Shown piece by piece: positions 37,809 through 54,797 of a DNA stretch of 64,000 nt. The stretch is from Ptychodera flava (Eukaryota; Hemichordata; Enteropneusta; Ptychoderidae). The position numbers and the translations under genes were made by a program. The stretch is taken from assembly GCF_041260155.1 (NCBI RefSeq), contig NC_091934.1, forward strand, positions 46,332,842 through 46,396,841. The letters are read 5' to 3'. The notes below the pieces were generated by a model, which did no database searches, had not been told where the DNA came from, and worked only from the letters and a program-made list of their open reading frames with translations. How positions within the stretch are numbered: the stretch's first letter is position 1; each line of letters opens with the position of its first letter.

Positions 37809-37814
37809 AATATA
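37809..37814. repeat. Polinton target-site duplication, left (AATATA)
   Basis: AATATA directly before the element, identical to the hexamer directly after it at 54792-54797. A 6-bp duplication is the diagnostic size for Polinton integration. Confidence 0.92.
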
Positions 37815-38168
37815 AGTAGTAAAGAAAGGGTGGACAACTGGGATGAAGTAAGAATTTTTACACCCATTTTATTCATTTATCTACATGAAGTGAAGGAAAA
37901 ATTAACCATCCATGTAACTAAAGTGTGACCCTGACCTATATACGAACTCACGCACGCGCAGCAGTGCATTGTCCTGAACTAAGCGGGGAAATTCCCTTCT
38001 GAGCATGTTTATACACGTTCCGAAGGTGTACGGGAAATTCCGTGTGAGTCATCACCATCAAACTAGCCTATATAAAGGAGCTTTTTTTTTTACCTGTGTT
38101 GTCAGTCCGGCCGGCCGGTCGCGGAGTCTAGCTGATGTTGAACACGAGAGTTCCTATCGGTGCGAACT
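37815..38168 (+). repeat. Polinton left terminal inverted repeat, 354 bp
   Basis: Starts AGTAGTAAAG and ends GTGCGAACT. Compared with the right copy it differs by four small insertions (1, 4, 1 and 1 bp, all extra in the left copy) and a single substitution near the inner end. It contains an AP-1-like TGAGTCA at 38045 and a TATATAAAG at about 38069, both pointing inward. Confidence 0.95.
38045..38077 (+). promoter_or_regulatory. Inward-facing TRE plus TATA box in left terminal repeat
   Basis: TGAGTCA (38045-38051, the AP-1/TRE consensus) is followed 17 bp later by TATATAAAG (38069-38077), a textbook TATA box. The predicted start of transcription is near 38100, reading into the element. The nearest genes point the opposite way, so its product is unknown. 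The same pair is present in the right repeat. Confidence 0.45.
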
Positions 38169-38171
38169 TGT

Positions 38172-39232
38172 TCACCTGATAGATAAAATTTTAGTAATTT
38201 CCTCTGAACTTAAAATGTGACGAAAGACCATTACTTCAAACAAAATGAGTCGTTTCAGATGAATGGTACTGATATCTAAAGTGTTCACTCTTTTATCTTT
38301 ACGTACAAATGTAGTTCCTAAGTCGTTCTCTATTCTATTCCCACCAACAAAACATTCAATACTCATTTCCCCTCCCCGATCTTTATCGATACTTATGATA
38401 ATATCACAAGTTGTTCTGTTATCTGTTTTCATAGCATAATATCCAACCAAATCGTCAAATTCATCTCCCGTAGCTAACTTTACACATCTAATGAGAACTG
38501 TACCATGTTGAAGTATTTTCATATTATCAGTCATCTGTTGATTTACAGTCTGTAAAGTGAGAACAGCTGCCTCATCACCGACACTTTTAAGACCCAGTTT
38601 CTTTAAAGTTGTGTCCCAAATAATCTAACTGGAACTCCGCTAGCTGCATACGAGCAATAATTCTCCCCCTCGTTTATCCACCTTCTTAGTGTATTATCTG
38701 CCTTCATTATTGTATTAAGAGGACTAATTTTAAGGTGAATCGGTATACCAAGAAGTGCAATGTATGGATTCGTAGGAGTAAGCCAACTACGAAAATCTAA
38801 CAATTTATATTTGTTTACATTGCTATCAAAATAAATCACATTCGGAGTTCCTGGTGGTTCAGCAACACCTCCTGCAATTTCACTACCCAATATATCTAAG
38901 ATGTTACGCGGCACATTATAAGGCATGAATTTCTGACTAGCCGAATCCCATGTCAGAGCAAAAGGAGTAGAATCATTCGAAGCCTTTGTGGCGTCAATTA
39001 CAGTTTCATCAATGTCTTTAAGTTCGGAAAATTCTACAGCATGTTCGTGGGGTGGCGCCGCGGCATTGGCTAAAACGAAATATTTTTCGCGGTCTTTATA
39101 ACGAAGGACGTAATCCTTATTATGATTAGCAGCCATCTTAGTATTATTGTTAACTTTAACATCACTCAGATCTTCAAGCTCAAGATTTTGCATACGAATT
39201 GTACCTAGACCGAAGCCACTTGGATCAGACAT
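38172..39232 (-). CDS. Polinton protein with possible lectin-like C-terminal domain (frame broken)
   Basis: Two overlapping frames appear to belong to one gene. The upstream frame starts at MSDPSGFG and ends at a TAA at 38603. The second frame is open from 38624 and ends at a TGA at 38172, three bases inside the terminal repeat boundary. Passing from the first to the second needs a one-base correction (missing-base type). The last ~120 residues (FVGGNRIEND, then VMVFRHILSSEEITKIL) resemble the end of laminin-G/concanavalin-like domains, which would fit a virion attachment or fibre role. That is a weak inference. I chose this start because a TATATAG motif lies 13 nt upstream; an N-terminal extension with a hydrophobic segment (VYCILQGIILIFTVY) is open further up. 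Confidence 0.6.
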
Positions 39233-39245
39233 ACTCCGTAGGGAC

Positions 39246-39252
39246 CTATATA
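39246..39252 (-). promoter_or_regulatory. TATATAG start-proximal motif
   Basis: TATATAG 13 nt before the chosen ATG at 39232. It belongs to the motif found before almost every gene of this element. Confidence 0.55.
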
Positions 39253-39279
39253 CAGTGAAAATTAAAATAATACCTTGTA

Positions 39280-39285
39280 ATATAC
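39280..39285 (+). promoter_or_regulatory. ATATAC start-proximal motif
   Basis: ATATAC 11 nt before the ATG at 39297. A weaker member of the element-wide motif. Confidence 0.45.
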
Positions 39286-39296
39286 AATACACAGTC

Positions 39297-39705
39297 ATGG
39301 CTTCAGCAATAGGAATGACAGTTCTCGGTGCTGTATTAAATGCAACGGCATTCACAGGAGGAAATTATCGGACAAAAGCTTTCCGGTAATGGTGATGCTC
39401 TTATTGAAGAGAAGGTCCGACATGATAAAGCATTAGAAAAATTTGAACATGATCGCAACGTCTGGTCAGAAAAAAGATTACTACAGGCTGACTGGGAAAG
39501 AGAAAATCAAGCAAAGGATGCGCATGCTGCGGCAGAATTAAGAGATACAGATGCAGAAATCCTGGAAGAAGCAGAAGCGGTGCAAAGCCGTTCCGAAGGG
39601 GCAGTTCAATTCTCAGATTATTATCAACCCAGTCCTGAGCAAAAGAAATATGAGATGATCTATATTGCTGGAGGATTGGTCGTGGGATGGTTTATCTTCC
39701 GATAG
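39297..39705 (+). CDS. Conserved Polinton small membrane protein (frame broken)
   Basis: Begins MASAIGMTVLGAVLNATAF, a hydrophobic N-terminus, in one frame that stops at 39389. The rest lies one frame away and ends at 39705. The switch must fall between about 39355 and 39389 and is of the extra-base type. The second part is a charged, probably coiled-coil region (EKFEHDRNVW, KDAHAAAELRDTDAEI), then a short FSDYYQPSPEQ motif and a C-terminal hydrophobic segment (MIYIAGGLVVGWFIF). The layout (hydrophobic start, charged helix, SDFY-type motif, C-terminal anchor) matches a small protein I recall as common in animal Polintons; its function is unknown. Confidence 0.65.
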
Positions 39706-39734
39706 GGTTACACCGGTAGGGACCCGCTTCGGGA

Positions 39735-40465
39735 CTACAATAATTCAATACAAAAGCTAATTGGCCAGTTATTGAAATCGATCATGTTCCCATCCTGATC
39801 TGTTATCCAGATACGCATTGAATTCATGTAATCTCCCCCTTTTCTCAATGGCATAGAAATTGCTCCGTTTTTAAAATCGTAAGTAACCTTTTCACTTATT
39901 TCTCTCGTATCCCGGATGGGAAGTATTGTAAACAGTTCGATACTTTCCCCTGTATGTATCCTCCGGAGGCACCCGAACCAAATGAAACATAATTTCCAGT
40001 AACATCGACTACATCTGAATGAACTATATATTTAGTGACTGTTAAGAAATCCACTTTCTTCGGACTCATAGTACTTTTTATAACTGGGTTGTCCTCAGGT
40101 TTATCTGAAAAGCCGACTACGTTGGCGAAGCTACCTGTGGCATTGAAATAGACTTTAATATCTTTAGCCAAAGTTAGATAAACATGGTTTGTCGGCAGAT
40201 GTTTTTCACAATTAATTTTTTGCTTCAACCCGATTGCTTTGTTTAACGTATCGATATTGTAGTTACCTGGACGTATTGATTTAGTCTTCTTCGGTTGGTC
40301 ACCTTCTTGATATTTTATTACATTATTCGTCGATGTTATGTTATGCCATGAATTATATAGTCCGCACTCTAGCAGTCTTATCTTCGTAAACTGTGTCGTG
40401 TCAATGCAAGGGTAAAAATTAACAGTGACTGGTTCACCTGTTTGGCTTTCAATCCAAATGATCAT
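39735..40465 (-). CDS. Polinton capsid-associated protein, penton/fibre-like (frame broken near C-terminus)
   Basis: The main frame of 189 residues starts MIIWIESQTGEP and stops at 39896. The next frame then stays open from about 39920 to a TAG at 39735 and codes the remainder (PLRKGGDYMNSMRIWITDQ and DFNNWPISF). The break is of the missing-base type. Motifs such as LLECGLYNSWHNI, RPGNYNIDTLNKAI and the C-terminal RIWITDQDGN match a widespread Polinton protein that I associate with the minor capsid or fibre component. Assignment to the penton is inference. A TATATAC motif lies 11 nt before the ATG. It is transcribed with the next three small minus-strand genes. Confidence 0.62.
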
Positions 40466-40476
40466 TGTTGTGCGCT

Positions 40477-40483
40477 GTATATA
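40477..40483 (-). promoter_or_regulatory. TATATAC start-proximal motif
   Basis: TATATAC exactly 11 nt before the ATG of the penton/fibre-like gene. Confidence 0.6.
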
Positions 40484-40528
40484 TTACTAAGTATAAATGT
40501 TCGATGAATAATATTCCGAAGGTGCCCA

Positions 40529-40759
40529 TTACGAAGTATAAGGTTCTGCAGGAATAATATTTTTCTGTTCAAGGAGATCTTTGGTTGCTACCGCGGCAGC
40601 AGTCGCACCGCCTAATTTTGCCAATCGAGTCAAATTTGGACGACTTGGATCGCCAACCTCTATTTTCAGAAATTTGCTGGAGATCATAAGATATCCCATC
40701 GCAAGTCCTGCGATTACAATACCATCGTACATTGTGTTTACAACTGTTTTAATATCCAT
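40529..40759 (-). CDS. Conserved Polinton small transmembrane protein
   Basis: An intact 76-residue protein starting MDIKTVVNTMYDG. One predicted membrane segment (IVIAGLAMGYLMISS) is followed by KIEVGDPSRPNLTRLAKL and a small alanine-rich helix. Proteins of this size and pattern recur in animal Polintons next to the capsid genes; the function is unknown and a virion membrane or scaffolding part is possible. The TATATAC motif is 12 nt upstream. Confidence 0.72.
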   Translation of the reverse strand: MDIKTVVNTMYDGIVIAGLAMGYLMISSKFLKIEVGDPSRPNLTRLAKLGGATAAAVATKDLLEQKNIIPAEPYTS

Positions 40760-40771
40760 GATTGCTGACTA

Positions 40772-40778
40772 GTATATA
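40772..40778 (-). promoter_or_regulatory. TATATAC start-proximal motif
   Basis: TATATAC 12 nt before the ATG of the 76-residue membrane protein gene. Confidence 0.6.
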
Positions 40779-40810
40779 AAATAAAAAATAAAATAAAAAA
40801 ATATGGGGAG

Positions 40811-41344
40811 TTAATCCATCTCATACAATGTAGAGGAGCTGGGAACACCCCCCTCCCCCTCCCCCTCCCCCTCCCCTCCTCTCGGAACCCCTGTCGGAAC
40901 TGTTCCGGATGGAGCTGCTACGTGCTCTGTTTTTTTCGCTTTCTGTGGAGGATCTTTCCGGACGGAACAATAATGTCGAGCACGCCCCCAATATAGCCCT
41001 AATGCAGTCAATGAAACTCCCACAATTCCTAAAACAAGATAACATTTATTATACCAGCGTGAATTATTATCACACTGTTCTTTCATTGTAGGCGGTAGGT
41101 CTGCTACCGCATCGCTCCCCCCTCTCCCCCCCTCCATTGCTTTTAGTTTCTTCTCCTTGTTTTTCCTGTTCCATTCCGCTAATTTCTTGCCCGCAGCAAC
41201 TCTCCCTGGATGCTTCGGCGGTAACGTCACTTTCTCTATGTTGCGCTGTGGCGTAGGGAAGGTCGTCGTTTCCGTTTGCGGTGTGGGCCCCGTCGGCGGG
41301 GCTTCTGACGGAGTCGTTTGCTGAGTCGGCGAAGTTGAATCCAT
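40811..41344 (-). CDS. Pro/Thr-rich single-pass membrane protein
   Basis: 177 residues, not recognised by family. The N-terminus is rich in Pro and Thr (PSEAPPTGPTPQTE). A basic stretch follows (RKNKEKKLKAMEG), then one membrane segment (CYLVLGIVGVSLTALGLYW), a basic patch and an acidic Gly-Glu repeat (GEGEGEGG). The Gly-Glu repeat is coded by a (GGGGAG)n microsatellite at about 40845-40880, so its length probably varies between copies. The Pro/Thr region could be O-glycosylated if exposed. An AATATAG motif lies 12 nt before the ATG. Confidence 0.62.
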   Translation of the reverse strand: MDSTSPTQQTTPSEAPPTGPTPQTETTTFPTPQRNIEKVTLPPKHPGRVAAGKKLAEWNRKNKEKKLKAMEGGRGGSDAVADLPPTMKEQCDNNSRWYNKCYLVLGIVGVSLTALGLYWGRARHYCSVRKDPPQKAKKTEHVAAPSGTVPTGVPRGGEGEGEGEGGVPSSSTLYEMD

Positions 41345-41356
41345 TTATTTCAGGTA

Positions 41357-41363
41357 CTATATT
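41357..41363 (-). promoter_or_regulatory. AATATAG start-proximal motif
   Basis: AATATAG 12 nt before the ATG at 41344. Confidence 0.5.
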
Positions 41364-41382
41364 AAACCCAATTTTTTAAAAT

Positions 41383-41850
41383 TTAATGTTTACCCGTAAT
41401 TAAACCGGTGGAAATTAGAGCAATCACAGGCCCCCACGTGTACGCTATCCGCCCTGATAATCGTTTTATTTCACTGTTTAGAATAAAATCCTTTTTAAGA
41501 TCAGTGGCATAGTTATCTCGATCATCGATTGGAACTACCTGACTTATTGCACGGGCTCCTAGATCTATGAAACTTTGAGTGATGGTATCACTTATAAGAG
41601 AACTGTATTTCGCTTCGTACATTTTGAAGGCTTTAACCACCGTTTCATCTTTCCATTTTTCTACGTCAGCAACTGTAATCTCCTTACCAAAAAATAACTT
41701 ACTTTGACCACTTGCGATGACACAGAGTATTTTTTCACGTTTTGTCTCTATTATGGATTGATTATTGTCCGAAGGCACCGAAGGCGCCGAAGCCCCTTCG
41801 GAATGCGCTGCCATATTTGCCGCTGCTGATGACTTTATTAAATTCTCCAT
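41383..41850 (-). CDS. Conserved Polinton protein of unknown function
   Basis: 155 residues from MENLIKSSAAAN. The frame is open further upstream, but that part is low-complexity and looks non-coding, so I chose the ATG at 41850. The core (KREKILCVIASGQSKLFFGKEITVADVEKW) is helical, and the C-terminus has a hydrophobic helix (YTWGPVIALISTGLITG). I recall similar proteins in other animal Polintons but no function is known. Upstream is only a weak motif (AACATAC, 8 nt before the ATG). Confidence 0.6.
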   Translation of the reverse strand: MENLIKSSAAANMAAHSEGASAPSVPSDNNQSIIETKREKILCVIASGQSKLFFGKEITVADVEKWKDETVVKAFKMYEAKYSSLISDTITQSFIDLGARAISQVVPIDDRDNYATDLKKDFILNSEIKRLSGRIAYTWGPVIALISTGLITGKH

Positions 41851-42005
41851 TGTTTGCAGTATGTTATCTATTCTTAGTAAAAAATAAAAAATTCGTTTAA
41901 ACCTGAATCCGAAATAAAGTATTAACATAGTCTGGAATGTTAGTACCCCTAAAGAATCGTTCCGACAGGGATTCCGAGAAATTCTCCTCCATTTAAATCT
42001 ATCTG

Positions 42006-42012
42006 TATATAG
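42006..42012 (+). promoter_or_regulatory. TATATAG start-proximal motif
   Basis: TATATAG exactly 11 nt before the ATG at 42024. Confidence 0.6.
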
Positions 42013-42023
42013 AAACACGAATA

Positions 42024-43421
42024 ATGAGTACAGACCTATTCCCAGTTGCTTTTCAATTGAATAAGACGAGCGTACCGACAGTACAGCATGCTGATATTCC
42101 TTCCAAACCGGACGGGGGAATAAAACCTATTCTCATGGACTTAGAAATATATGTAACGCCGACAGATAAATTTACTTTTCATCCACGGATGTGTTCAAAG
42201 ATAATGTAATCACTCATAGAACAGCAAAAGAAAGTAATGTCTGGCTGGGCAGCCCAAAGATGAAATACTGGGACCAGCAACTGAATTCGCTGTATGGTGT
42301 AGCACTACTGGTTGTGGTATATCATTCACCCATCTCTTCGATAAGAAATTTCCTCCGCAAATACGATCATTCTGCCGTTTCCATGTATACTTTACAATAC
42401 GTCGGATCCTTCACGAAATGGGCGTTGCACTTCCAGACGATACCCCCACCTTCAAAGCGGGCGACAATCCGTACAATCTCGTCCAATATGAACTTCTCTG
42501 TACAGAATTTGGAAATATAAGTCCAACGAAGTCCGACTTTCGTTATCGAAAGGTCAAAATAAAGGTCTTGGTTATGGTATGAATATTACACTAATCGTGG
42601 GCCCGTTCGACAGCCAAAAGCGATATACAACGGTCGGGACTTTTTCCTCTCCTCTGACGGAGGGTGTTTTCTATACACATACAATTTTTGGAAAGAAAAA
42701 ACATGTACTGCCCGACAAAGACAGACCACACTATTATTTCTTCCGAAATGATGGATCGGAGGGGCAATACAATAGTTTCATTCCTCTGAAGGGAGACTCG
42801 GGACTAACAAAGGCCGGTCTCGCCCGCCTCAATGAAAGCCTTGAAGCCTACGTATATTGCATACTTGGCGCACAAGCAAATATTCGCAGTACCATAGTAG
42901 GTGATACTGGCAGCGCAGAGCAAGTAAGAAAAGAATTCGGCGTTCTCCTCGAAGATGAAATTCGTAATACAGACAAAGTAATTAGTTATAGGCGATATCA
43001 AGACACAATAATGAATACTGGTGTCAAACTTGATATGGCAGTCTCACCCAATTTACTTCTCTTACCGTCTGAGATGGTCATCCTTTCGGGCCCGGCGATC
43101 TCGGGTTATAATAATGAATTGCAATACGCAACAGAATCTATGTCCTTCGGGGTGAACGGTGATATAAACACGGAAGTTCGAGAAAGTGCTGTACATGAGA
43201 TGGAAGGAGGAGGGGAGGGGGGAGATCCTGTGAAGTGGCAGGACGAGCCCGGAGAGTCACCTCACAATGACACGACTCGGGGGCCTCCCCTCCCCTCCCC
43301 AGAACGGGCAGCATCTACGACCAGCGTAGACCCTATTCACGAATATGGTAAAATTGGTTTGTTATCTTTAGCAATATTCATTACTATTGTAGGTACTGGA
43401 ATAAAGTCACTAACTATATAG
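42024..43421 (+). CDS. Conserved Polinton structural-type protein with C-terminal anchor (frame broken three times)
   Basis: About 465 residues spread over all three frames. The first frame (MSTDLFPVAFQLNKTS) runs to a stop at 42209. The second runs from about 42185, the third from about 42300 to about 42560, and the first frame resumes to the end (GLGYGMNITLIVGPFD onward). Each switch is of the missing-base type. Recognisable parts are KMKYWDQQLN, a Cys-containing GCGISF segment, RFHVYFTIRRIL and a C-terminal hydrophobic segment (IGLLSLAIFITIVGTGI) after an acidic/Pro-rich region. This matches a conserved animal Polinton protein of unknown role; a virion or membrane-associated part is likely given its membrane anchor. 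TATATAG lies 11 nt upstream. Confidence 0.62.
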
Positions 43422-43508
43422 TTCATTCAGATGCTGTCGATGTGACTGGGTTTCATCTAACTCGAACCAGTAACTTAAAAGAACTAGAAGAGATTCATTA
43501 ATTTACAG

Positions 43509-43515
43509 TATATAG
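43509..43515 (+). promoter_or_regulatory. TATATAG start-proximal motif
   Basis: TATATAG exactly 11 nt before the ATG of the packaging ATPase. Confidence 0.6.
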
Positions 43516-43526
43516 ATCCAGAGGAA

Positions 43527-44141
43527 ATGTCAATATACGTAACCCCACCATTCAACATGATTATAACTGGACCGACATATTCTGGCAAAACAGAATTTAT
43601 GTTGGACCTCCTCACCGGTCCGTACTTAAGGAAATTCGAATATGTGATATTCATTTGCCCAACATTCATGAATAATAAAGCGTATAATAGAAGATTCATT
43701 TTCACCGATGATAATGTGTTTATATTTCCAGTCGGACTCGATGCAGTGGATGATACATTAACCTACGTGCATAAAGAATGGGCTGGAACGAACACTTTAA
43801 TAATCCTCGATGACTGCGCCTCGTCCAAAGATATGAAGAAGCGCAGTAACGTTTTAGTCCAACTTGGTTTCAGCGCAAGACATGACGGATTATCTGTCTG
43901 GGTTCTGACTCAACAATATACTAGTATTAGTAAACCATTTAGGGAAAACATACAGATGTTAGTACTATTTTACACACCGAACAAGATAGACAACAAAACT
44001 ATTATAAAAGAATATGGAATGGAGGTGTCAGAACGGGAAGCCGTGGGTCTAATCAAGCAATTGAAAAGTAGGCCATTCAGTAAACTAGTATTTCGTTTAC
44101 GGAATCCGTACGACATAAAATTATTCGTATATATAGCAATT
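43527..44141 (+). CDS. FtsK/HerA-like genome-packaging ATPase (in frame with integrase)
   Basis: The P-loop ATPase of the Polinton and PRD1-adenovirus-like packaging group, expected to drive DNA into capsids. Walker A is GPTYSGKT at residues 15-22, and Walker B is TLIILDDCA with the acidic pair at residues 95-96. A polar LTQQY motif near residue 128 fits the sensor position. The domain ends around residue 200 (VFRLRNPYDIKLF). No stop follows: the frame runs straight into the integrase, whose own ATG is residue 206 of the combined 569-residue frame. In Polintons these are usually separate genes, so the continuity is unusual or reflects a lost stop. Confidence 0.85.
44128..44136 (+). promoter_or_regulatory. 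TATATATAG motif before the integrase ATG
   Basis: TATATATAG lies inside the ATPase-integrase frame, 5 nt before the integrase ATG. Its presence argues that the integrase is also expressed from its own start. Confidence 0.45.
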
Positions 44142-45236
44142 ATGGAAGCTGAAGGTACTCTTAGAGAATTATATTACAACCCGAAAACTGGTTTTGGAGG
44201 TGTACAAAAATTGTATGACGCAGCACGGGCCAGCGGACTCCACGTCACTAAGAAAGAGGTGAAGGACTGGTTAAAAATTCAGCTAACTTATAATCTACAT
44301 AAACCGGTACCTCGTTCTCATGCTACGGGCGGCCGGCGCGTTTTTGTAACATCGATAGACTCACAGTGGCAAGCAGACCTTGTGGAATTCCCTGCAGCAT
44401 TCGCAAAAGAGAATCATAACATTCGATACATGCTAACAGTAATCGATGTACTCAGTAAATATGCCTGGGCTAGGCCAATACAGTCAAAAACGGCCGATGA
44501 TACGTTACAGGCGCTACAAGACGTGATTAAGAAATCCGGGAGAAGACCCGACAAACTTCAGACAGATGAGGGGCGGGAATTTACAAATCGAAAAATGCAG
44601 GGGTGGTTGGAGGAGTCAGGCATTCACTGGTTTCACACCTACAGTGACAAAAAAGCTAGCGTCGTTGAACGTTTTAATCGGACCCTCAAGACGATGATGT
44701 GGAAATACTTTACATACAGACAGACACGTGAATGGCTTTCTATTCTACCCCACCTTCTCGAGAATTACAATAACACCGTTCACGGAAGTATCAAAATGAA
44801 ACCCAGGGACGTAACAGAGGAGAACGATTGGCAGGCATTTTATACACTATTCGGTCCTGAGTTGGCAGCCGGGGGAGCCAACCCTGAATTCAAGCCGGGA
44901 GAACGTGTCCGAATTACAAAATACAAGACCACTTTTAAGAAAGGATATTTGCCAAATTGGACAGAGGAGATTTTCGTAGTTTCAAAAGTTGTGTACGCAG
45001 CTGGCTTGGGAACACCACCAGTTTACAAAATAAAAGATCTGAATGGAGAGGAAATACTCGGCACTTTCTATTCTGATGAACTTCAGAGCGCCCTTTCGGA
45101 CGAGCTGTACAGAGTAGAACGAATTTTGAAGACGAAAAAAATTAGAGGAAAGAAATATTATCTGATAAAATGGAAAGGTTATCCAGAAAGTTTCAATAGT
45201 TGGGAGCCGGAGGAAAATGTTATTAGTACTACGTAA
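44142..45236 (+). CDS. Polinton integrase (rve core, C-terminal chromodomain)
   Basis: A retroviral-type DDE integrase that inserts the element and makes the 6-bp target duplication. The N-terminal part (LRELYYNPKTGFGGVQKLY) is the usual Polinton integrase start. The catalytic core has D in QADLVEF, D in LQTDEGREF and E in ASVVERFNRTLK, at residues 284, 347 and 381 of the combined frame. A beta-rich segment (KPGERVRITKYKTTF) follows. The C-terminal ~40 residues are a chromodomain (LYRVERIL, YLIKWKGYPESFNSWEPEENV) with the aromatic residues needed to bind methylated histone tails, which would direct integration to chromatin. The frame is intact. The 3' end overlaps a set of palindromic repeats. 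Confidence 0.93.
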   Translation: MEAEGTLRELYYNPKTGFGGVQKLYDAARASGLHVTKKEVKDWLKIQLTYNLHKPVPRSHATGGRRVFVTSIDSQWQADLVEFPAAFAKENHNIRYMLTVIDVLSKYAWARPIQSKTADDTLQALQDVIKKSGRRPDKLQTDEGREFTNRKMQGWLEESGIHWFHTYSDKKASVVERFNRTLKTMMWKYFTYRQTREWLSILPHLLENYNNTVHGSIKMKPRDVTEENDWQAFYTLFGPELAAGGANPEFKPGERVRITKYKTTFKKGYLPNWTEEIFVVSKVVYAAGLGTPPVYKIKDLNGEEILGTFYSDELQSALSDELYRVERILKTKKIRGKKYYLIKWKGYPESFNSWEPEENVISTT

Positions 45237-45345
45237 GTACTTCGTAAGTTCCTGTGCTGGTACTACGTAAGTACTTCGTAAGTTCCTGTCCATGGTACTT
45301 GTCAAGTACTACGTAAGTACTAACGTAAGTATTTACGAAAGTTAT
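45224..45345. repeat. Palindromic TACTACGTAAGTAC repeats between convergent genes
   Basis: TACTACGTAAGTACTTCG is repeated at 45227, 45261 (34 bp later, nearly identical) and, partly, 45307, with CGTAAGT-type fragments between. Each copy is close to self-complementary. They lie at the end of the integrase gene and before the convergent kinase-exonuclease gene, where a bidirectional terminator or insulating element would be expected. Confidence 0.7.
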
Positions 45346-45393
45346 TCAATAAGTACCATGGAAAAAGTCTTAATTTCTTGAAAGCCGAAAGTG

Positions 45394-46521
45394 TCAGTTT
45401 ACCACCCCACTTCCACCCCCACCTGGCCAAGTATTTATCATGTACTGTCGTAAGTAATGTCCACTTACTGCATCTTTTTCGGCCGTATGTGGATGAGGTG
45501 GTACCCCCTCAGTTCCTGAACATATTAAGTTTGCAAGATCTTCAAAACGACTTCTCATGTTACCACAGTCCGTTCTTTCGAGTCCCCCTTGTTCAGCTTT
45601 ATCGATAAGTTCTGGTTGAAGTATAATGTACACAACTGACATAAGCCATAGACAAGTAACTTCAAAGTCCGGTGTTACAGAACCGTAGGGTTTCATAATG
45701 TCAAGTGCTCGTAGGTCAAACGAAGCATTATAAGCACACACAGATTCACAAGCGTTAAGAAGTTTGTGTAGGTTCTTTAGTGAGACTCGAGGTTGTTCTA
45801 GTTGTTCTTGACCAGGTGGGAAGTACGCTTTTTCAAGTTCCTCCTCCTTGAAACCGTCTATTAAAAATCCCTGGCTGCCGCCGCTCCATGCAATTCCAAA
45901 GTCAAAAGCTCGTGGATATTCTACTGGTCCGACTGTCTCGGTATCAATTGTTGGATTAAGTATATTCTTGAGAACGAGGGGGGTAAGAGCGTTCCGAATT
46001 ACCAAACATGGAAGTCTGTAGTCGTGGCAAATTTCTAAGAAAGTCTGTTTGAACTTATTGTGAATCTCTTCTAGTTCTTCTAAGGCGGCTATTTCGTACG
46101 ACCTGGCTCGAGTCAACACATTCCGCCTGCAATAATCCCAAGGCATATCTTTGAATATGATAATGAAACTGTGTAAATGGTCAAATGCTCTAGAAACAAT
46201 CTTTTTTTCTTCCGACTCCGTGGAAACGCCCCGGATTCGAGAAAAAGTCAGATGTTGAATTATGGAAGAGTCACAAATAATGTATTGTTCTGAAGGGAGG
46301 GGGGTTTCCTCCCTCCTCCTCCCAGCCTGACATTGTAAACTAAGAGTATGTTCTATAAACTGATTCTGAAAATCGGCAATCGAAACGTGGCGCCCATTAT
46401 AAAAGTCGGCAATGTTGCTGGAAAAACTAGTGTCAAATTCTGGTACGTGATACGGATCCAAATTTACTGCATCGTAACTCTTACCACTTCCAGTTGGTCC
46501 ATTTATGAATATGTATGACAT
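45394..46521 (-). CDS. Deoxynucleoside-kinase-like P-loop domain fused to DEDDh 3'-5' exonuclease
   Basis: An intact 375-residue protein with two enzymatic domains. Residues 1-180: a P-loop (NGPTGSGKS, Walker A at 8-15), an ICDSS motif at 82-86 in the place of the kinase ERS/DRY-type motif, then an arginine-rich lid-like stretch (CRRNVLTRAR) and LEELEEIHNKF. That is the order seen in deoxynucleoside kinases, which salvage nucleosides into dNTP precursors. Residues 190-365: a DnaQ-like exonuclease with ExoI IDTETVG (D193, E195), ExoII CAYNASFDLRAL (N265, D269) and ExoIII HTAEKD (H345, D350), the DEDDh layout. All five predicted catalytic residues are present. It lies divergent from an unknown gene next to the polymerase, suggesting a role in supplying or editing replication substrates. 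I know of no such fusion in standard Polintons. The exonuclease call is firmer than the kinase call. Confidence 0.75.
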   Translation of the reverse strand: MSYIFINGPTGSGKSYDAVNLDPYHVPEFDTSFSSNIADFYNGRHVSIADFQNQFIEHTLSLQCQAGRRREETPLPSEQYIICDSSIIQHLTFSRIRGVSTESEEKKIVSRAFDHLHSFIIIFKDMPWDYCRRNVLTRARSYEIAALEELEEIHNKFKQTFLEICHDYRLPCLVIRNALTPLVLKNILNPTIDTETVGPVEYPRAFDFGIAWSGGSQGFLIDGFKEEELEKAYFPPGQEQLEQPRVSLKNLHKLLNACESVCAYNASFDLRALDIMKPYGSVTPDFEVTCLWLMSVVYIILQPELIDKAEQGGLERTDCGNMRSRFEDLANLICSGTEGVPPHPHTAEKDAVSGHYLRQYMINTWPGGGGSGVVN

Positions 46522-46530
46522 TTTGGGATA

Positions 46531-46537
46531 CTATATC
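46531..46537 (-). promoter_or_regulatory. GATATAG start-proximal motif
   Basis: GATATAG 9 nt before the ATG of the kinase-exonuclease gene. A long T-tract (about 46552-46575) separates it from the divergent gene. Confidence 0.5.
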
Positions 46538-46582
46538 ATAGAAATTTTAAAAAAATTTTTTTTTTTTTTTTTTTTATTAAGA

Positions 46583-46589
46583 TATATAC
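46583..46589 (+). promoter_or_regulatory. TATATAC start-proximal motif
   Basis: TATATAC 9 nt before the ATG at 46599. Confidence 0.55.
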
Positions 46590-46598
46590 GATAAGACA

Positions 46599-47353
46599 AT
46601 GACAATCCTTTCTATTTCAGATGCAATAAAAATACTTGAAACCGGAGAAAACATCAAAATTGATGATGGAGGCAAATTAGTATTTGGTGAATATGTAGAT
46701 CCTTTCATATACGTAGACAGTGAGCTAGAAGTAGTTTTCAACATCGGATTTAAGTACGGTTCGGGAGGAGATCCTGCTACATGCGATGGGGTGTGTGTCA
46801 GTTGGCAACTGAGTCTTCAAAAGTTTATCGATTTAATAGTATTCCGTACCTTAGGTGAAAGTTTCGATGCAAGAACTGCTAAAAGTTATGCTGAAAGCCT
46901 GGCCGCTCACTCCAAGAATACTATCGGATTTTACAATCCATCTAAAGTGTATCAGAAGCGAGGGAGCGAGGCACAGCCGGGCATGAGGTATTTTAAATTT
47001 CAGTTTAAAAGAGGGAGAGGGAGAGGGGCTCACGATTTCGCTACATGTATTGATATGGTTCAAGAATTGACTGCGGTTTTAAAACAGTGAGTCCGTTACT
47101 ACCAGTCCGAGAAAATCCTGCTATTGTACCTCGTAATATCAGGAAAGGTAGTAAGATAGAATTCTTAGCATTTAAACCGCGCTTAAGTAAGCGTGGCCTT
47201 TCTTTCACTGTTGAGAGGTTATTTTGTGCTGCGCCTAATAAACCAGAAATTCAAGATGTGGAAGAACTAGTCGACTTAGAAAGATTAGGTGAGATATATA
47301 AACAAATAAATGCTGACAAAAATATTATAGTGGATTTTGATGACCTATCATAG
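46599..47353 (+). CDS. Unrecognised Polinton protein next to polymerase (probable frame break)
   Basis: The first frame (163 residues, MTILSISDAIKILETG) stops at 47090. The overlapping next frame, which has no ATG of its own, stays open to 47353 and reads as a natural continuation (RENPAIVPRNIRKGSKIEF, ending VDFDDLS). The break sits at or near TTTTAAAACAG and is of the missing-base type. The whole would be about 250 residues, with a basic Gly-Arg stretch (KRGRGRG) and several aromatic residues around it. No catalytic motif is recognised. Its place between the kinase-exonuclease and the polymerase suggests an early or replication-linked job, possibly nucleic-acid binding; this is inference only. 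Confidence 0.55.
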
Positions 47354-47390
47354 AATAATTATTTTTCATTTTTAAAAATTTTTAGGATAG

Positions 47391-47400
47391 TATATATATC
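47391..47400 (+). promoter_or_regulatory. TATATATATC motif before polymerase
   Basis: TATATATATC 6 nt before the polymerase ATG. The spacing is shorter than before most genes of the element. Confidence 0.45.
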
Positions 47401-47406
47401 ATAAAG

Positions 47407-50400
47407 ATGGCCAGTTTACATACAGCATTCAAGGGAGCAGTTTTACAAAAAGAATTTCCTGAAGTCAAGCGAGTCGAGGATATCGGGGAGCTGGTGGATA
47501 TTGAAGGTATGGTCCATTCGGAACGAAAGATGTACTCTGTTTATACCAAAATGGAAGTCAAATTATCGGATCCGAAAACTGGTAATACACAACCGCGTTC
47601 ATTGTATGTTAAATTAAATGATACATACACAAAAGATGTAAGAGGATCGGGATCGGATGTGGGGCAACAATTAATAGATCGCTACGATCGTATGCTTGAT
47701 ACAATTGAAAATGTTGAGGGTTCTGGCCTCGTTCTCGAGGAGATACTTAATTTTGAAGTAATTCTAGTAGAAGTTTTACTCGGGGCTGGCCCGGGGGCTG
47801 GCGCAGTCCAACTTCCCAGATGGTTAAAAAATAAGCATTGTGTGAGCGATCTGGTGCTACCTTCGGGCAGCGAGAACTGTTTTCAATACGCCATCGTAGC
47901 AAGTTTAAAGTTGGCCGACCCCGAGTTTCGTGAAAAGAAATGTGGTCAGGTAAGGAGAAAATGGAATACGTACGCCCCATTTATGGCTGACTACTGTTGG
48001 GAAGGTATTCCCTTTCCTACACCCGCCGATCTGACTGTATTCAGGCGCTTCGAACAGCAAAATCCAGGCATCAAACTTCAAGTATTTCAGATCTACGAAA
48101 ATGATCCCGCTCCCCCGTCCGACATAACTGTGTTATATAGTGCCCCTGGCGGAGACGAAGGTGAAGCCGATAGGAATCAAATAGCAAATATCTTACTGAT
48201 AGTTGGTGAAGACGGCGGCCGTTCTCACTTCGTACCAATTACTGCGGAAAATCGCCTTCGTAATTCTCGTACTAATCGAAAGAATGAGCGCAGACGGAAG
48301 TGTATTTGTATGGTTTGTAAAAGAGGTTTTAAGTCAACAGAAGAATTAGAAAAACATCAGGTATACTGTGGAACAGACACTGCCCAGCCAGATTTTCCTA
48401 AGGAAGTGTGTCAATTTGAAGGACATCGGAAGAAGGTTCCTTCTCCCTACGTCGTCTATGCAGATACTGAGGCAATTATTGAGAAGGGGACCGGCCGGCA
48501 CATTCCAATTTGTCTTTCGTATGTTATGGTGGGGAACGGGGGTGGGGACCTTCGGAACGAGGCCCGGGCCGACCCACTGTTTATGGTAAAAGAACATTCA
48601 CAGGTCTCTCCTGTGTTACAGACTTTCTAAAGGATATGAAAGAACGGGCCGAGTATTATTCTAAATCGTATTATTGGAAAATAATACCGATGAGGGATCC
48701 TTCTAATTACCGGCGCGACGGATGTGATCCAGTCTGTATTGCATGTGGAGAGCCGGCAGGATACCGAGTAGTGAAGGAGGAGGCGACCTTCTATTGCGAA
48801 GGATGCCGGCCGTCGAGAACCATTCCTATCTACTTTCACAACCTCAAGGGATACGATGGTTCTTTTATTTTGAAAGAATTACATGAAATCGTTACCGAAG
48901 GAGATGCTGACGCGGAGGGGGTCCGGACCAGAGCCTAAAATCATAGCTAAGACGAGCAATGGAGGAATTATGGGTCTCTCGAAAACATTTATTTTTCACG
49001 CCTCAATTGTTGTTGCCGGAGGGAAGAGGGAGATAAAGAGACGTTTCTTTTCTATAAAGTTTATGGACAGTGCTCAGCTGATGATGGGGTCATTGGCGAA
49101 GTTGGCAAAAACTGTGCCGGAGACCCAGGGGTGGACGGCGGCGCCACTTTCGTACCCGGACATTCAAAGGGCGAAAGGTTTCTTCCCCTACGAATATTTA
49201 GACTCGGTTGACAGATTAGAAGAGGGTGAGCTCCCGGAGAGGGGGGAATTTTATAGCGAATTGACGGAAGAGGGGATTTCAGAGTCTGATTACGAACATG
49301 CATTAAGAGTATGGGACGAAGTTGGATGTAAAACGATTCGTGATTATATGGAATTCTATTGTGAGACTGACGTTCTACTTCTTGCAAATATATTTGAAAA
49401 TTTTCGTGACACATGTTTAGAAGCATATAAGTTAGATCCAGCCCACTATATGTCAGCGCCCGGCTTGACATGGGATGCTATGTTACTTTACACAGGTAAT
49501 AAATTTGGGCTCATTCAAGATGCTGAGCAGATGAATTTCGTACAGAGGGGGATTCGAGGCGGTATCAGCCAGTGTAATATTCATTATTTACAGACAAATC
49601 ATCCTGCTTACGGGAATTACGATCCAGAGAAGCCAGTGACCGAAATAAATATCTCGATGCAAACAATCTCTACGGCTGGGCAATGAGTCAGGCAATGCCT
49701 ACAGGCGGACTTCATTGGATGACGATGAAAGAGTGGGAGGAATGGACCGCCGAGGGGGGAGCGGGGGCGGAGCTGGAGCGTGGGGACCTGGTTCCACCTT
49801 TCCACCAAGTTTTCTAGAAGTAGACTTAGAATATCCCCCCGAATTACATGAAGAACACAGCGATTTGCCATTAGCACCGCATCACTATGAATTTCCGAGG
49901 CAGGGCGGTCGACTGATTACAAGTGTGATGGATAGAGAGTCCTATGTCTTACACTACAAGTTGCTGGAATTCTATCTTCGGATGGGAATGAGATTGAAAA
50001 AGATTTATCGGGTGCTTGCTTTCGATGAAGCTCCATGTCTCGCGAAATATATTGACTTTAACACTAAAATGAGGACAAAGGGGAGGACAGATTTTGAAAA
50101 GAATTTCTATAAGCTGATGAATAATGCAATGTTCGGTAAGACAATAGAAGATGTTCGAAAGTACAGAGACTTTAAATTTGTTTCGGACTGGAACGGCACG
50201 GATAGTGGACGTAAAAAGATTCAGAAGTATAATCCAAAGATGAAACATATAACTTTCATAACTTCCGAAGAGGATGGTGATTCCTGCGACAGTGCCCTAC
50301 TGGAACTGAAAACGGATGAGCATAAATATGTAAAACCAGTTTTCATTGGCGCGGCGGTGCTTGAACTTTCTAAGCTGCTTATGTATGAGACGCATTACAA

Positions 50401-50986
50401 TTACTTTCGGGCCCAGTTCCCTGGAATACGATTAGCCTACATGGATACTGACAGTTTTGTTTACAGTGTACCAATACCCTCCCCGGATCCGGACGTAACT
50501 TTCAATGATATAGTTCGGGAAGATGTGGAAAAGAATGGTGAGAAGTCTATATATGATACTAGTGGGATGAGCGGACCCAACTTTCCGAAGATTAATAAAA
50601 AAGTGATAGGTAAATTTAAAGATGAGTTGAATGGTGAACCTATTCTTGATTTTGTCGGCATACGCTCGAAAGTGTATGCTTTTCGAACTCCAACTTCGGA
50701 GACGAAAAAAAATAAAGGGGTGAAAGATGTTTGTGTTAGAAAACATTTGAACTTTGAAGATTATAAAGATCTGTTTGAAACTGGGAAGAAGCCGGAGCCG
50801 GCACAGTTTGTACAGTTTGTACGGAAAAAGGCTGGAGAAATCCGTAGTGAAAAGCGTAGTAAAATTATGATGGCGCCAAATGATATCAAACGTGTGCAGC
50901 TATACAATCCAGACACAGGCGAATGGCTGGCAGAAACATGGCCGATAGGACGGACGACGGGTCATGGTTACGGTTTAAAATTGTAA
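47407..50986 (+). CDS. Protein-primed family B DNA polymerase (frame broken four times)
   Basis: The replicative polymerase of the element, expected to copy it by protein priming from the terminal repeats. In order: an N-terminal domain with SENCFQYAIVASL and RSHFVPIT, a C2HC zinc-finger-like motif (C301, C304, H317, C321), the exonuclease motifs ExoI (YADTEAI, residues 353/355), ExoII (FHNLKGYDG) and ExoIII (YCETDVLLL), then GIRGGIS, motif A (DANNLYGWAM), motif B (FYKLMNNAMFGKT) and motif C (YMDTDSF). All catalytic motifs are present, but in different frames. Frame changes fall near 48540-48600, 48905-48930, 49630-49680 and 49745-49810, three of them beside runs of four to six G. Three are missing-base and one extra-base type. 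The 3' end overlaps the convergent capsid gene by 12 bp. Confidence 0.9.
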
Positions 50987-52239
50987 AGACATTAATCTAC
51001 TATTTTCAATAGAGACCAGGGCATCACTGATAACAAAAATGTGAGCAAATATATTGTCATCGCGAGCAACATCGCCAACCTTAATTGAGCCATCTTTCTT
51101 CAGGATCTCAAGTTGAATTCCATCCTTTGTGTTCATTACTTTTAAACCATTTCCATGAAACTCAATATCTTTAAAGCTACGCAGATCAATAAACAGACAG
51201 AATTTATTCTTCAAATAATCAACTTCATCTATGTCAATTTCACACCAATCTTTATCTTCAGCAAAATACCGTCGCACCTCTCGCCAAAATTGTCTTGGTA
51301 TCATCTTCTGAGCGTACACTTTATTTGCAATGCCTTCAATCATTACAGACACAGATTCAATGGATGGGTTAAAGAAAAGTTCACTGTTCAGTTCTGTCTG
51401 ATTCTGATTTTTAGTAAAGAGTATGGCGATACCTCTAATGCTACGTCGTGGTACATTTATATTTTCATTGATAACTGTGTCCGATTCTTTGAATGGGATT
51501 GTTCTAAAATAATGTATATGCTCGTAAAGGTAACTTTTTCCACCGTTGTAATAACCAGCAGTTGACCTCGCTAGATCGAGGTCAGAAATTGTCTCGTATT
51601 CCATTTGAATGTTTTTTAATTTATAATTGGTTGTAACAACCTGATTACTGACAAGTAATTGGGGGGCGGGTGCCAACGTAATTTCCCATTCGATATGACT
51701 CCCTAACGCTGATGGATATGCAACTCCATGACCTGTTATGAGGGGATGAGTGAGACGAATAGCATATTTTGTTTATATGTGTCGAAAAGTAACTTATCGC
51801 CCACGACGTTTTGATCTCCATCGGTCGAACCGCTTCTTAATTTTCTTAGATTTTCGTTCTGAATTCCGTACAGTGTCATGTTCGTTCTCTCCTTTTTATG
51901 TTTGAAGAGATCGCGATAACATTCAATAAGGTTATAATTATTCAAATCGAAAAGTGTCTGACCCTCAAATGTGAGTTTCATACGCTCCACCAAATTTTTT
52001 GCAACATTTTGTACTACTCGGTTATATTCATCTCCCATTACTTCGAGATCAAAAACCAGGTCGAAAGTATCTGGAACTAAGAGTACTCCGCTTTCTAACT
52101 TCGGACATCGTATGATAAGTGTCTGGCCTGGATCTGCCTCACTTGGATTATGAGCAATCACGTGATGAGTTCTTTCTGACTTTGTTCCATTCGGTATTCG
52201 GTTGGTGAAAGTCGGTGATAATGTTCTATCGTACCCCAT
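50975..52239 (-). CDS. Double-jelly-roll major capsid protein (frame broken once)
   Basis: The main shell protein of the predicted Polinton virion, related to adenovirus hexon-type and PRD1-type folds. The N-terminal frame starts MGYDRTLSPTF and holds VERMKLTFEGQTLFDLNNYN and ECYRDLF. It stops at 51736. The C-terminal frame carries SVSVMIEGIANKVYAQKM, FCLFIDLRSF and HGNGLKVMN, all typical of Polinton capsid proteins. The switch falls between about 51740 and 51780 and is of the missing-base type. I chose the ATG at 52239 because it is the start supported by a TATATAC motif 11 nt upstream; the open frame continues further up but without similarity. The combined length of about 420 residues suits the family. 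Confidence 0.88.
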
Positions 52240-52250
52240 TTTCGTGTAAT

Positions 52251-52257
52251 GTATATA
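52251..52257 (-). promoter_or_regulatory. TATATAC start-proximal motif
   Basis: TATATAC exactly 11 nt before the capsid protein ATG. Confidence 0.6.
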
Positions 52258-52280
52258 GTAGAAGAAAAAAAGAAAATAAA

Positions 52281-52631
52281 TCACATCTTTACGTAAATAT
52301 TTCCGTCTGACTGAAAGATAAATCGATTGCCTGTGTCGCGAATCAATCGAAGAACCCAATATTCTTGGAGATGATGAGCCTCTTGGTCATCCTCAGTATC
52401 CTGGAATACAGCTATGAATTCTAGTCGCTTAAAGAAGTTAGTCTTCTGACATTCCTTCACGAAAGCTAAAATGTTATGATACAGATTATCATCTTTGAGT
52501 CGGACACCTGGATTTGCTCGAAGTATATGTCGATTTACTCGTCGGAGTTTGCACCATTCCAATTCGACAGAGAAACCAAACAGGTCTTTATTTTTAGAAA
52601 GAAACTTTGCAATATTCTTTTCACCAAACAT
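52281..52631 (-). CDS. Small Polinton protein, unrecognised
   Basis: An intact 116-residue protein starting MFGEKNIAKFLSKN. It is basic in the first half (KLRRVNRHILR) and ends with GNRFIFQSDGNIYVKM. No membrane segment or catalytic motif is evident. It lies between the capsid gene and the long coiled-coil membrane protein, in the same direction, so a virion-assembly role is possible. The upstream motif is weak (TTAATAC, 9 nt before the ATG) and overlaps the probable end of the next gene. Confidence 0.62.
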   Translation of the reverse strand: MFGEKNIAKFLSKNKDLFGFSVELEWCKLRRVNRHILRANPGVRLKDDNLYHNILAFVKECQKTNFFKRLEFIAVFQDTEDDQEAHHLQEYWVLRLIRDTGNRFIFQSDGNIYVKM

Positions 52632-52643
52632 GTTGATGCCGTA

Positions 52644-53926
52644 TTAATACATAATTTTATTTATAATGACTAATGTTAAACCAGTTAAAAATATCCATAG
52701 CTGTTCTCCAACAATCCGACAACCGATCCTGCTGTTTTTAATAGAAAACTGACGAGGGAACCGATTAAACCTGGTATTGCAGCAGCACTTTTTGCAGCCA
52801 ATGTTTTTAACCATTCGCCAAATTGCTTTACAATTTCTTTCGCTTTTGTGTATACTTTGGGCGGACCTGAACCAGACCCGCCAGTTCCTGCTGCTCCCCC
52901 TCCTCCTCTAGTTACAGCCAGGGCAATTGTTGATATTGTCATTCCAAGGGCAGTCAGTATTGCAGCAATTGTAATACCATTTCGTTTAAATAACTCTGTC
53001 AGCTTCAGTCTCAGTGATAATTCTGGATCAGAAATTACATCACGAAGAGACCTAGTCGTAGCCAGTCTTTCATGTGCCTCGCTAATCTTACCATTTTCAT
53101 ATTCAATTCGGTTGTCAATTTTAGCTTCTCTTGTTATTAGTTCAGCTAGTAGTTTCTTGGCTTTTTCTTTTCCTTGGGTGTGATCTTCAGGAATTTCCTT
53201 TAACTGTTTTTCAACTTCTCTTTTCTCTAGCCTTATTTTAACTTTTTCATTGTTAAGGTCGCTAATACGCATATTCGCAATCCTTAATTCATCATTAATA
53301 GCTCTATATTCTGGGTTTAGATTGTTCCATTGTTCGATTTTATTTTCAAAAGCTTGTATTTTGTCTGCATTACCAGAAGCATCTTGCCGTAACTCTGTCA
53401 GTTTATCTTTGTATATACCCATGTCTTCTGGCGTCATCTTCTCAGCCGGTATTTTATCGTTTTCCACATCTACAGAATACAATGCACGACTCACATATTC
53501 GGGCTCTGCGCTGTCCCCCGTCTTACTGTATACTTTAGTTACAAATTCATATCCTCCTGCTTCTTTTTTTACTGTCTTGAGCGATTTAAAACCACTTCCT
53601 GAAAGTTTTGATAGCCTGAGTTCTTTATAATACAGCTTTCCATACCTAATCTTTGCATTCAAAAATAATTCGTTTCGTGCTGCTTCATCAGTAATATTAT
53701 TCTCGTTTAAGAATTTTTCAGCCATTTGTATTTTAAGTTCTACTCCAAATTTAGTCGAAGGATCTACCTGCGGGCTCCGCGCGCTTGAGCTATCCCGGTA
53801 AGGATCGACTTCTGCAAGGGCATTATCATCGTCTATAAAGAATGTTTCAGCAGTAGCGTCATCATCGTCATTTACATTTGCATCATCGAAATCCTGGAGT
53901 GGTATATCTTCTCCTCCTTCTGCCAT
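52644..53926 (-). CDS. Conserved Polinton coiled-coil membrane protein (frame break near C-terminus)
   Basis: 413 residues in the main frame from MAEGGEDIPLQDFDD. An acidic N-terminus is followed by long charged helices with coiled-coil character (about residues 195-290), a membrane segment (GITIAAILTALGMTISTIALAV), a glycine-rich linker (GGGGAAGTGGSGSG), and an amphipathic to hydrophobic end (AAAIPGLIGSLVSFLLKTAG). The main frame stops at 52685. The neighbouring frame continues as a further hydrophobic segment (LWIFLTGLTLVIINKIMY) to a TAA at 52644, so a missing base near 52715 probably removed the last ~20 residues. This is a common Polinton protein of unknown function; a virion-internal or membrane-active role is plausible. 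Confidence 0.68.
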
Positions 53927-53935
53927 ATTGTCTTT

Positions 53936-53942
53936 CTATATT
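53936..53942 (-). promoter_or_regulatory. AATATAG start-proximal motif
   Basis: AATATAG 9 nt before the ATG at 53926. Confidence 0.5.
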
Positions 53943-53971
53943 ACTACAATTATTTTTTATCATCCCTTACA

Positions 53972-53978
53972 TATACAG
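53972..53978 (+). promoter_or_regulatory. TATACAG start-proximal motif
   Basis: TATACAG 9 nt before the ATG at 53988. A divergent member of the motif. Confidence 0.45.
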
Positions 53979-53987
53979 TAAAAAAAA

Positions 53988-54446
53988 ATGCACATCTCAG
54001 TTGTTGAAAGCGTTGAACAATTGGCTGATTACATAGAAAGAACAAGTGCTGCATATCGGCGAAGTTACAAATTAATGGGTCGAATTGATATGGCTCTCAA
54101 TATTACTAAGGGAATTCTTGTAAGCTCTGCTGTAATAGCGGCAATTCCAACAGTTCCGGTACTGTTAGCTTTAACTCCTATACCAGGTGTTATTATTGAT
54201 GTGATACAAGGGAAAACTGGTGTAGCAAAGAGACGAGAGAAATATAAACATTATTATGTTCAATATAAACAGCTGCTTACACAAATACAAGAAAAAGGCG
54301 CAACCCTTCGGAACGAGGAGGCTCCGGGGTCAGAACTTATTCAGGACATATTTCATCAGGCGCTAGAAATTCAAAAACAAGAAGGATTTAGTCCACCTCT
54401 GGAAAGATACCTAAGACATTATGGATTGAATGGATATGAAATTTAG
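53988..54446 (+). CDS. Polinton membrane protein abutting the right terminal repeat
   Basis: An intact 152-residue protein starting MHISVVESVEQLADY. It has helical ends and a central hydrophobic segment (VSSAVIAAIPTVPVLLALTPIPGVI) long enough to span a membrane. The family is not recognised. The TAG stop overlaps the first two bases of the right terminal repeat (54445), mirroring the opposite end, where the last gene stops three bases from the left repeat. Confidence 0.62.
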   Translation: MHISVVESVEQLADYIERTSAAYRRSYKLMGRIDMALNITKGILVSSAVIAAIPTVPVLLALTPIPGVIIDVIQGKTGVAKRREKYKHYYVQYKQLLTQIQEKGATLRNEEAPGSELIQDIFHQALEIQKQEGFSPPLERYLRHYGLNGYEI

Positions 54447-54791
54447 TTCGTACCGATAGGAACTTCGTGTTCAACATCAGCTAGACTCCGCGACCGGCCG
54501 GCCGGACTGACAACACAGGTAAAAAAAAAGCTCCTTTATATAGGCTAGTTTGATGGTGATGACTCACACGGAATTTCCCGTACACCTTCGGAACGTGTAT
54601 AAACATGCTCAGAAGGGAATTTCCCCGCTTAGTTCAGGACAATGCACTGCTGCGCGTGAGTTCGTATATAGGTCAGGGTCACACTTTAGTTACATGGATG
54701 GTTAATTTTTCCTTCACTTCATGTAGATAAATGAATAAAATGGGTGTAAAAATTCTTACTCATCCCAGTTGTCCACCCTTTCTTTACTACT
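54445..54791 (-). repeat. Polinton right terminal inverted repeat, 347 bp
   Basis: The inverted partner of 37815-38168. It ends CTTTACTACT, followed by the AATATA target duplication. It carries the same inward-facing TGAGTCA (54560-54566) and TATATAAAG (54535-54543) on the minus strand. Confidence 0.95.
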
Positions 54792-54797
54792 AATATA
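54792..54797. repeat. Polinton target-site duplication, right (AATATA)
   Basis: AATATA directly after the element, identical to the left copy. Confidence 0.92.

Follow-up and report, generated by a model that had tools for sequence, protein, structure and literature searches.

Polinton/Maverick elements are recognized by inverted repeats with characteristic end motifs, a 6-bp target-site duplication, and genes for a B-family DNA polymerase (PolB), a chromodomain integrase, and an A32-like packaging ATPase. In the accessible parts of PMC8097293, AGTAGT/ACTACT is the commonest end motif of vertebrate Mavericks, and the accessible parts of PMC12721341 describe fusions of an SF1 helicase with PolB in Polinton-like viruses. 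Here we analyze a 64,000-nucleotide stretch of the hemichordate Ptychodera flava genome (NC_091934.1, positions 46,332,842 to 46,396,841; the window), in which an open reading frame (ORF) coding for a P-loop kinase-like half followed by a DEDDh 3'-5' exonuclease half sits inside a complete Polinton. We regard this gene as a real, conserved, and new accessory-gene variant of Polintons, not as a new kind of system. Like the helicase-PolB fusions (PMC12721341), it joins replication-linked enzymes in a related element, but the domains are other ones, and the word "kinase" has no occurrence in the accessible parts of that paper. Within the literature searched, which leaves Repbase and most subscription papers outside, we found no description of a kinase-exonuclease pairing in Polintons, in agreement with the initial annotation. 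The terms kinase and exonuclease have 0 occurrences in the accessible parts of PMC4642659 and PMC8097293, and the only paper among those listed to bring together a deoxynucleoside kinase and Polintons concerns algal giant viruses and names Polintons in a reference only.

The ORF is read on the minus strand (Table 1); in a single-frame reading, the plus strand over 45394-46521 contains many stops. The Walker A P-loop that the initial annotation placed at residues 8-15 is present at exactly those positions as GPTGSGKS, and its DEDDh motifs occur in the order claimed, as D193-x-E195, N265-x-x-F-D269, and H345-x4-D350. Two protein searches returned five relatives: P0001 (57% identity over 99% of the window protein), P0002 (57% over 97%), P0003 (53% over 97%), P0004 (46% over 57%), and P0006 (52% over 65%), the last a 271-residue piece that starts inside the kinase half. 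The proposed two-domain architecture recurs among them, as both halves are present in P0001-P0003, three proteins that align over 97-99% of the ORF at 53-57% identity. Together with the invariant catalytic residues described below, these identities suggest that the family has long been under purifying selection, as judged from sequence. No relative was found among IMG/VR viral contigs, either with the window protein alone (2 pattern-matching stretches) or with the kinase-exonuclease profile A1 (59 stretches), and a tblastn search of 50,697 phage records with P0003 gave zero matches at E up to 10. We note that an annotated P. flava protein, P0005, shares about 30 residues with the exonuclease half (91% identity, 8% of the query) and joins them to a trypsin domain, either as a gene-model artefact or as an element-derived exon; the family alignments leave it out.

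The strongest evidence for a DEDDh exonuclease half comes from a motif test. D193, E195, D269, H345, and D350 are invariant in all six aligned members, and each member contains a strict ExoI-ExoII-ExoIII pattern of four acidic residues and a histidine. This pattern occurs in four of 178 stop-to-stop frames at least 150 residues long, drawn from the window and from E. coli and phage loci: the window ORF and E. coli DnaQ, RNase T, and ExoX. It is absent from E. coli Orn and from the exonuclease of phage pT24 (see below). After shuffling of the exonuclease half, the strict pattern appeared in 0 of 200,000 sequences and a relaxed pattern in 10 of 200,000, figures that flatter the test because the pattern was drawn up with the motifs already known. 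The half shares with DnaQ, RNase T, and ExoX the motifs D-x-E-T/S, N-x-x-F-D, and H-x-A-x-x-D, ordered and at similar spacing, but it differs from DEDDh exonucleases in having no family-level sequence match and in the extra conserved PW(Y/Q)L stretch behind. Profile matches are weak and point one way. PADLOC DEDDh matched two of the four proteins submitted (P0002, 6.8e-4; window, 0.0071), NCBIfam DNA polymerase III epsilon matched one of four (P0001, 0.0064), with the window protein at 0.16, and the phrog_17 DNA polymerase profile matched window residues 191-274 (6.2e-4) and P0002 (0.034). NCBIfam matches near 0.02 are weak, since an unrelated model also matched P0001 at 0.02. In the structure prediction, the order of strands and helices fits an RNase H-like fold, although confidence is low across most of residues 278-348 (see below). 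Rows 2, 35, and 49 of the Foldseek viral list, proteins named exoribonuclease, polymerase epsilon subunit, and exonuclease, presumably match this half.

The other half is predicted to adopt a deoxynucleoside kinase (dNK) fold over its whole length, on the basis of Foldseek and VIA matches to dNK and deoxycytidine kinase (dCK). The structure model of P0003, which is poorer in the exonuclease half and worse at residues 278-348, was used for the kinase only. The kinase profile match looked for in this half was found in part. The phrog_761 thymidylate kinase profile matches the window protein at 7e-7, and the kinase half of P0003 passes the curated cut-off of PF01712 (27.4 versus 27), but the window protein has no dNK row in Pfam, only AAA_28 (residues 4-155, under its cut-off). 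PF01712 matches three of the four kinase halves at any level, and the whole P0001-P0003 proteins fall under its cut-off. PDB sequences gave 7 rows for the window protein, with a best E of only 0.14, and 19 rows for P0003, with a best E of 0.21 (NDUFA10 in 12 of the 19). Compared with dNKs (dCK, Drosophila dNK, and Mycoplasma deoxyadenosine kinase; PF01712), the half has the same predicted fold, P-loop, Glu after strand 2, Phe-Gln, and lid arginines, but Ser replaces the ERS arginine (by eye) and an exonuclease is fused. The P-loop, E28, Q52, and the lid arginines are invariant in the four kinase-bearing members, which argues for catalysis. A packaging ATPase or helicase, raised in the initial annotation as the alternative to a kinase, was rejected: the first 36 rows of the Foldseek PDB list consist of nucleoside kinases, thymidylate kinases, and chains of complex I, nucleoside and nucleotide kinases make up most of the structural lists, and the packaging ATPase of the element is another gene. 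A single weak PHROG row for a terminase (0.5) was set aside. NadR appeared once in each VIA list for this half.

The ORF is flanked by the PolB and integrase genes, as would suit an enzyme that processes DNA ends in integration or replication, its exonuclease trimming 3' ends or flaps at the termini and its kinase acting on polynucleotide 5' ends; DEDDh enzymes do trim 3' ends. We consider such a role quite unlikely, since polynucleotide kinase is not named in three top-50 structural lists composed mostly of nucleoside and nucleotide kinases, and since PolB has exonuclease motifs of its own, located by eye (Exo I, YADTEAI; Exo II, FHNLKGYDGSF; Exo III, YCETD, of the Y-x3-D type). These motifs also make the DEDDh domain of the ORF a separate exonuclease.

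A parallel is found in Tenacibaculum phage pT24, whose "adenylate kinase" BPT24_025 is row 1 of the Foldseek viral list (E 3.3e-7, 442 columns, root-mean-square deviation [rmsd] 21). The parallel rests on the Pfam domains of the 389-residue protein: ADK at residues 6-162 (1.3e-29) and an Rv2179c-like 3'-5' exoribonuclease at residues 195-383 (7.1e-20). The gene (L006:21589-22758) is annotated as adenylate kinase only, yet carries the second domain, and no description of a fused adenylate kinase-exonuclease in phage was found in the literature searched. The two proteins have a kinase and then a 3'-5' exonuclease in the same order, but the pT24 kinase is an ADK and its exonuclease Rv2179c-like, and hhalign finds only the P-loop in common with the window family. 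Most simply, the two are convergent fusions, and the combination seems to have been assembled on at least two occasions from different components. Bacillus phage G gp315 was rejected as a second parallel: it aligns over 387 Foldseek columns, but its Pfam domains are a TMK-like kinase and a uracil-DNA glycosylase, so aligned column counts alone are no proof of an exonuclease. The gp315 gene (L007:15928-16923) has no annotated function; putative genes for dCMP deaminase and thymidylate synthase lie close by.

Adenylate kinase acts on nucleoside monophosphates (NMPs), the products released by such an exonuclease, and it is mainly for this reason that we prefer nucleotide supply as the function. 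That a Polinton lineage has conserved this gene as an accessory enzyme, with an N-terminal P-loop kinase of the deoxynucleoside/thymidylate-kinase group and a C-terminal DEDDh exonuclease most likely serving nucleotide supply, is a reading we hold tentatively, at somewhat less than an even chance. DEDDh enzymes degrade nucleic acid 3' to 5', yielding 5'-(d)NMPs. The exonuclease of the ORF would release these monophosphates from the 3' ends of DNA or RNA; the fused kinase would add a phosphate, converting a deoxynucleoside to a dNMP or a released dNMP to a dNDP; and the PolB of the element would thereby be supplied with dNTPs in cells where the pool is low. A more specific version seems to us rather doubtful: dNMPs from the exonuclease would pass to the fused kinase, and this self-contained recycling enzyme, a solution that a phage would have reached independently with other enzyme families, would let a small element with its own polymerase turn host nucleic acid into precursors of dNTPs in cells outside S phase. 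Of the bifunctional enzyme proposed in the initial annotation, the conserved two-domain architecture, the predicted kinase fold, and the invariant exonuclease residues stood; enzymatic activity, its substrate, a hand-off between the halves, and a benefit to replication are what we infer.

Several observations weigh against nucleotide supply by an active two-domain enzyme. By sequence models the exonuclease half is orphan-like: Pfam exonuclease models match none of the six members, PDB sequences give 0 rows for it at E up to 10, and a hidden Markov model and hhalign comparison of both halves with 26 E. coli proteins and the two pT24 halves did not separate the four E. coli DEDDh enzymes from the 22 other E. 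coli proteins, which argues against easy family placement. The predicted local distance difference test score is below 50 over most of residues 278-348. An E/D-R-S motif with its Arg is known from dNKs, and this Arg is absent from all four kinase-bearing members, which have D-S-S instead (located by eye, following the strand at residues 80-83). P0004 keeps all of the exonuclease residues (D, E, D, H, D) and has a shortened kinase half with no P-loop, so the kinase can be lost; perhaps one lineage can do without it, or the gene model is in error. The pT24 parallel is one phage only: tblastn of its protein matched 117 of the 50,697 phage records, and the 2 at 80% coverage or more are both pT24. 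The source contigs of the relatives are short ENA records (longest, 3756 bases). Finally, the copy in the window has a frame shift near its end. A PW(Y/Q)L(L/F)N(N/D) stretch lies near the C-terminal end of all five other aligned family members, and residues 358-376 of P0001 match window 45382-45326 by tblastn (63% identity, weak E of 0.031) in frame -1, the ORF body being in frame -2; the tails of P0001, P0002, P0003, and P0006 match the window in frame -1 (E 0.012 to 0.52). Because the sequence for PWYLLNN follows just after the stop codon and is read in a different frame, the window ORF ends early by a frame change. Thus the "one intact 375-residue frame" of the initial annotation holds as 375 codons from ATG to stop, but the conserved tail is outside it.

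The missing ERS arginine and the degenerate kinase half of P0004, with its exonuclease residues kept, would also suit a protein that blunts host defence, in which the exonuclease clears cytosolic DNA or double-stranded RNA and the kinase half serves as a P-loop module with a regulatory or structural role. The nucleoprotein (NP) of arenaviruses and TREX-type DEDDh enzymes remove nucleic acid that would alert the cell, and the Foldseek lists include Lassa NP (3mx5; E 4.8e-4, prob 0.75) and the NP of University of Giessen virus (E 1.3e-3). We judge this role unlikely: the 3mx5 alignment covers 459 columns at an rmsd of 22 and is thus no clean domain match, and the invariant P-loop, E28, Q52, and lid arginines favour catalysis.

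The element that carries the ORF has AGTAGT/ACTACT-ended inverted repeats, a 6-bp target duplication, PolB, an rve integrase, and an A32-type ATPase (Pfam rve, Chromo, Pox_A32, and DNA_pol_B_2). It differs from other Polintons in the kinase-exonuclease accessory gene and in having ATPase and integrase in one frame. In the alignment of the two repeats, 346 columns match, 1 is mismatched, and 7 contain gaps; differing so little, they make the insertion look young. The gene could be an ordinary relic: an accessory gene in decay, or one captured from the host, that no longer has a function in an element now dead. The 3' frame change of the ORF, the several frames of PolB, and the joint ATPase-integrase frame suggest as much, and, with the relatives known from short contigs, a host origin of the gene is conceivable. 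A relic is nonetheless improbable in view of the near-identical repeats and of relatives that, at 53-57% identity, retain invariant catalytic residues and so indicate long purifying selection.

Table 1. Features of the Polinton and its kinase-exonuclease gene in the window
Feature	Position	Strand	Basis
Kinase-exonuclease ORF, 375 residues, ATG to stop	45394..46521	-	ORF list; relatives P0001-P0004, P0006
dNK-like kinase half, residues 1-187, P-loop at residues 8-15 (predicted)	45961..46521	-	Foldseek and VIA matches to dNK/dCK; AAA_28; phrog_761
DEDDh exonuclease half, residues 188-375; D193, E195, D269, H345, D350	45394..45960	-	Alignment; motif test; PADLOC DEDDh 0.0071
Conserved C-terminal stretch PWYLLNN, different frame, beyond the stop codon	45326..45382	-	tblastn; sequence reading
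Whole Polinton/Maverick element, 16,977 bp	37815..54791	.	AGTAGT...ACTACT ends; inverted repeats; 6-bp target-site duplication
Target-site duplication AATATA, left copy	37809..37814	.	
Target-site duplication AATATA, right copy	54792..54797	.	
Left terminal inverted repeat, 354 nt	37815..38168	+	Aligned to right repeat
Right terminal inverted repeat, 347 nt	54445..54791	-	
Packaging ATPase (Pox_A32, residues 7-182) continuing in frame into chromodomain integrase (from residue 206)	43527..45236	+	Pfam
PolB of protein-primed type (predicted), several frames	47407..50986	+	ORF list; Pfam DNA_pol_B_2

In the joint frame 43527-45236, the ATPase part extends to about residue 205, and alignments with integrase relatives begin at residues 206-212, residue 206 being a Met where these relatives start. 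Among 120 relatives listed of 1613, the rve domain is present, chromo occurs in nearly all, and Pox_A32 in none; the joint frame arose either by fusion or through loss of internal sequence where the ATPase ends. DNA_pol_B_2 matches the PolB pieces 48883-49686 (1e-9) and 48510-48938 (0.021), and pieces 47407-48630 and 49715-50986 have no PolB-related Pfam match. Two minus-strand frames, 50975-51676 and 51736-52359, candidates for the double jelly-roll major capsid protein of Polintons by their location, have no Pfam match. Searches of IMG/VR viral contigs returned no relative of integrase P0007 (8 pattern-matching stretches), of PolB piece 49715-50986 (6 stretches), or of an integrase profile built from 10 of those 120 proteins (32 stretches). 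By identity, seven ENA relatives of the window integrase stand at 63-68%, and the rest of the 120 listed follow at about 50% or less. That the kinase-exonuclease gene follows one Polinton sublineage is only a hint, as no contig joins the integrase and ORF relative sets. More broadly, the phage parallel, in which the kinase and the exonuclease belong to other families, suggests that having both activities on one chain is selected for.
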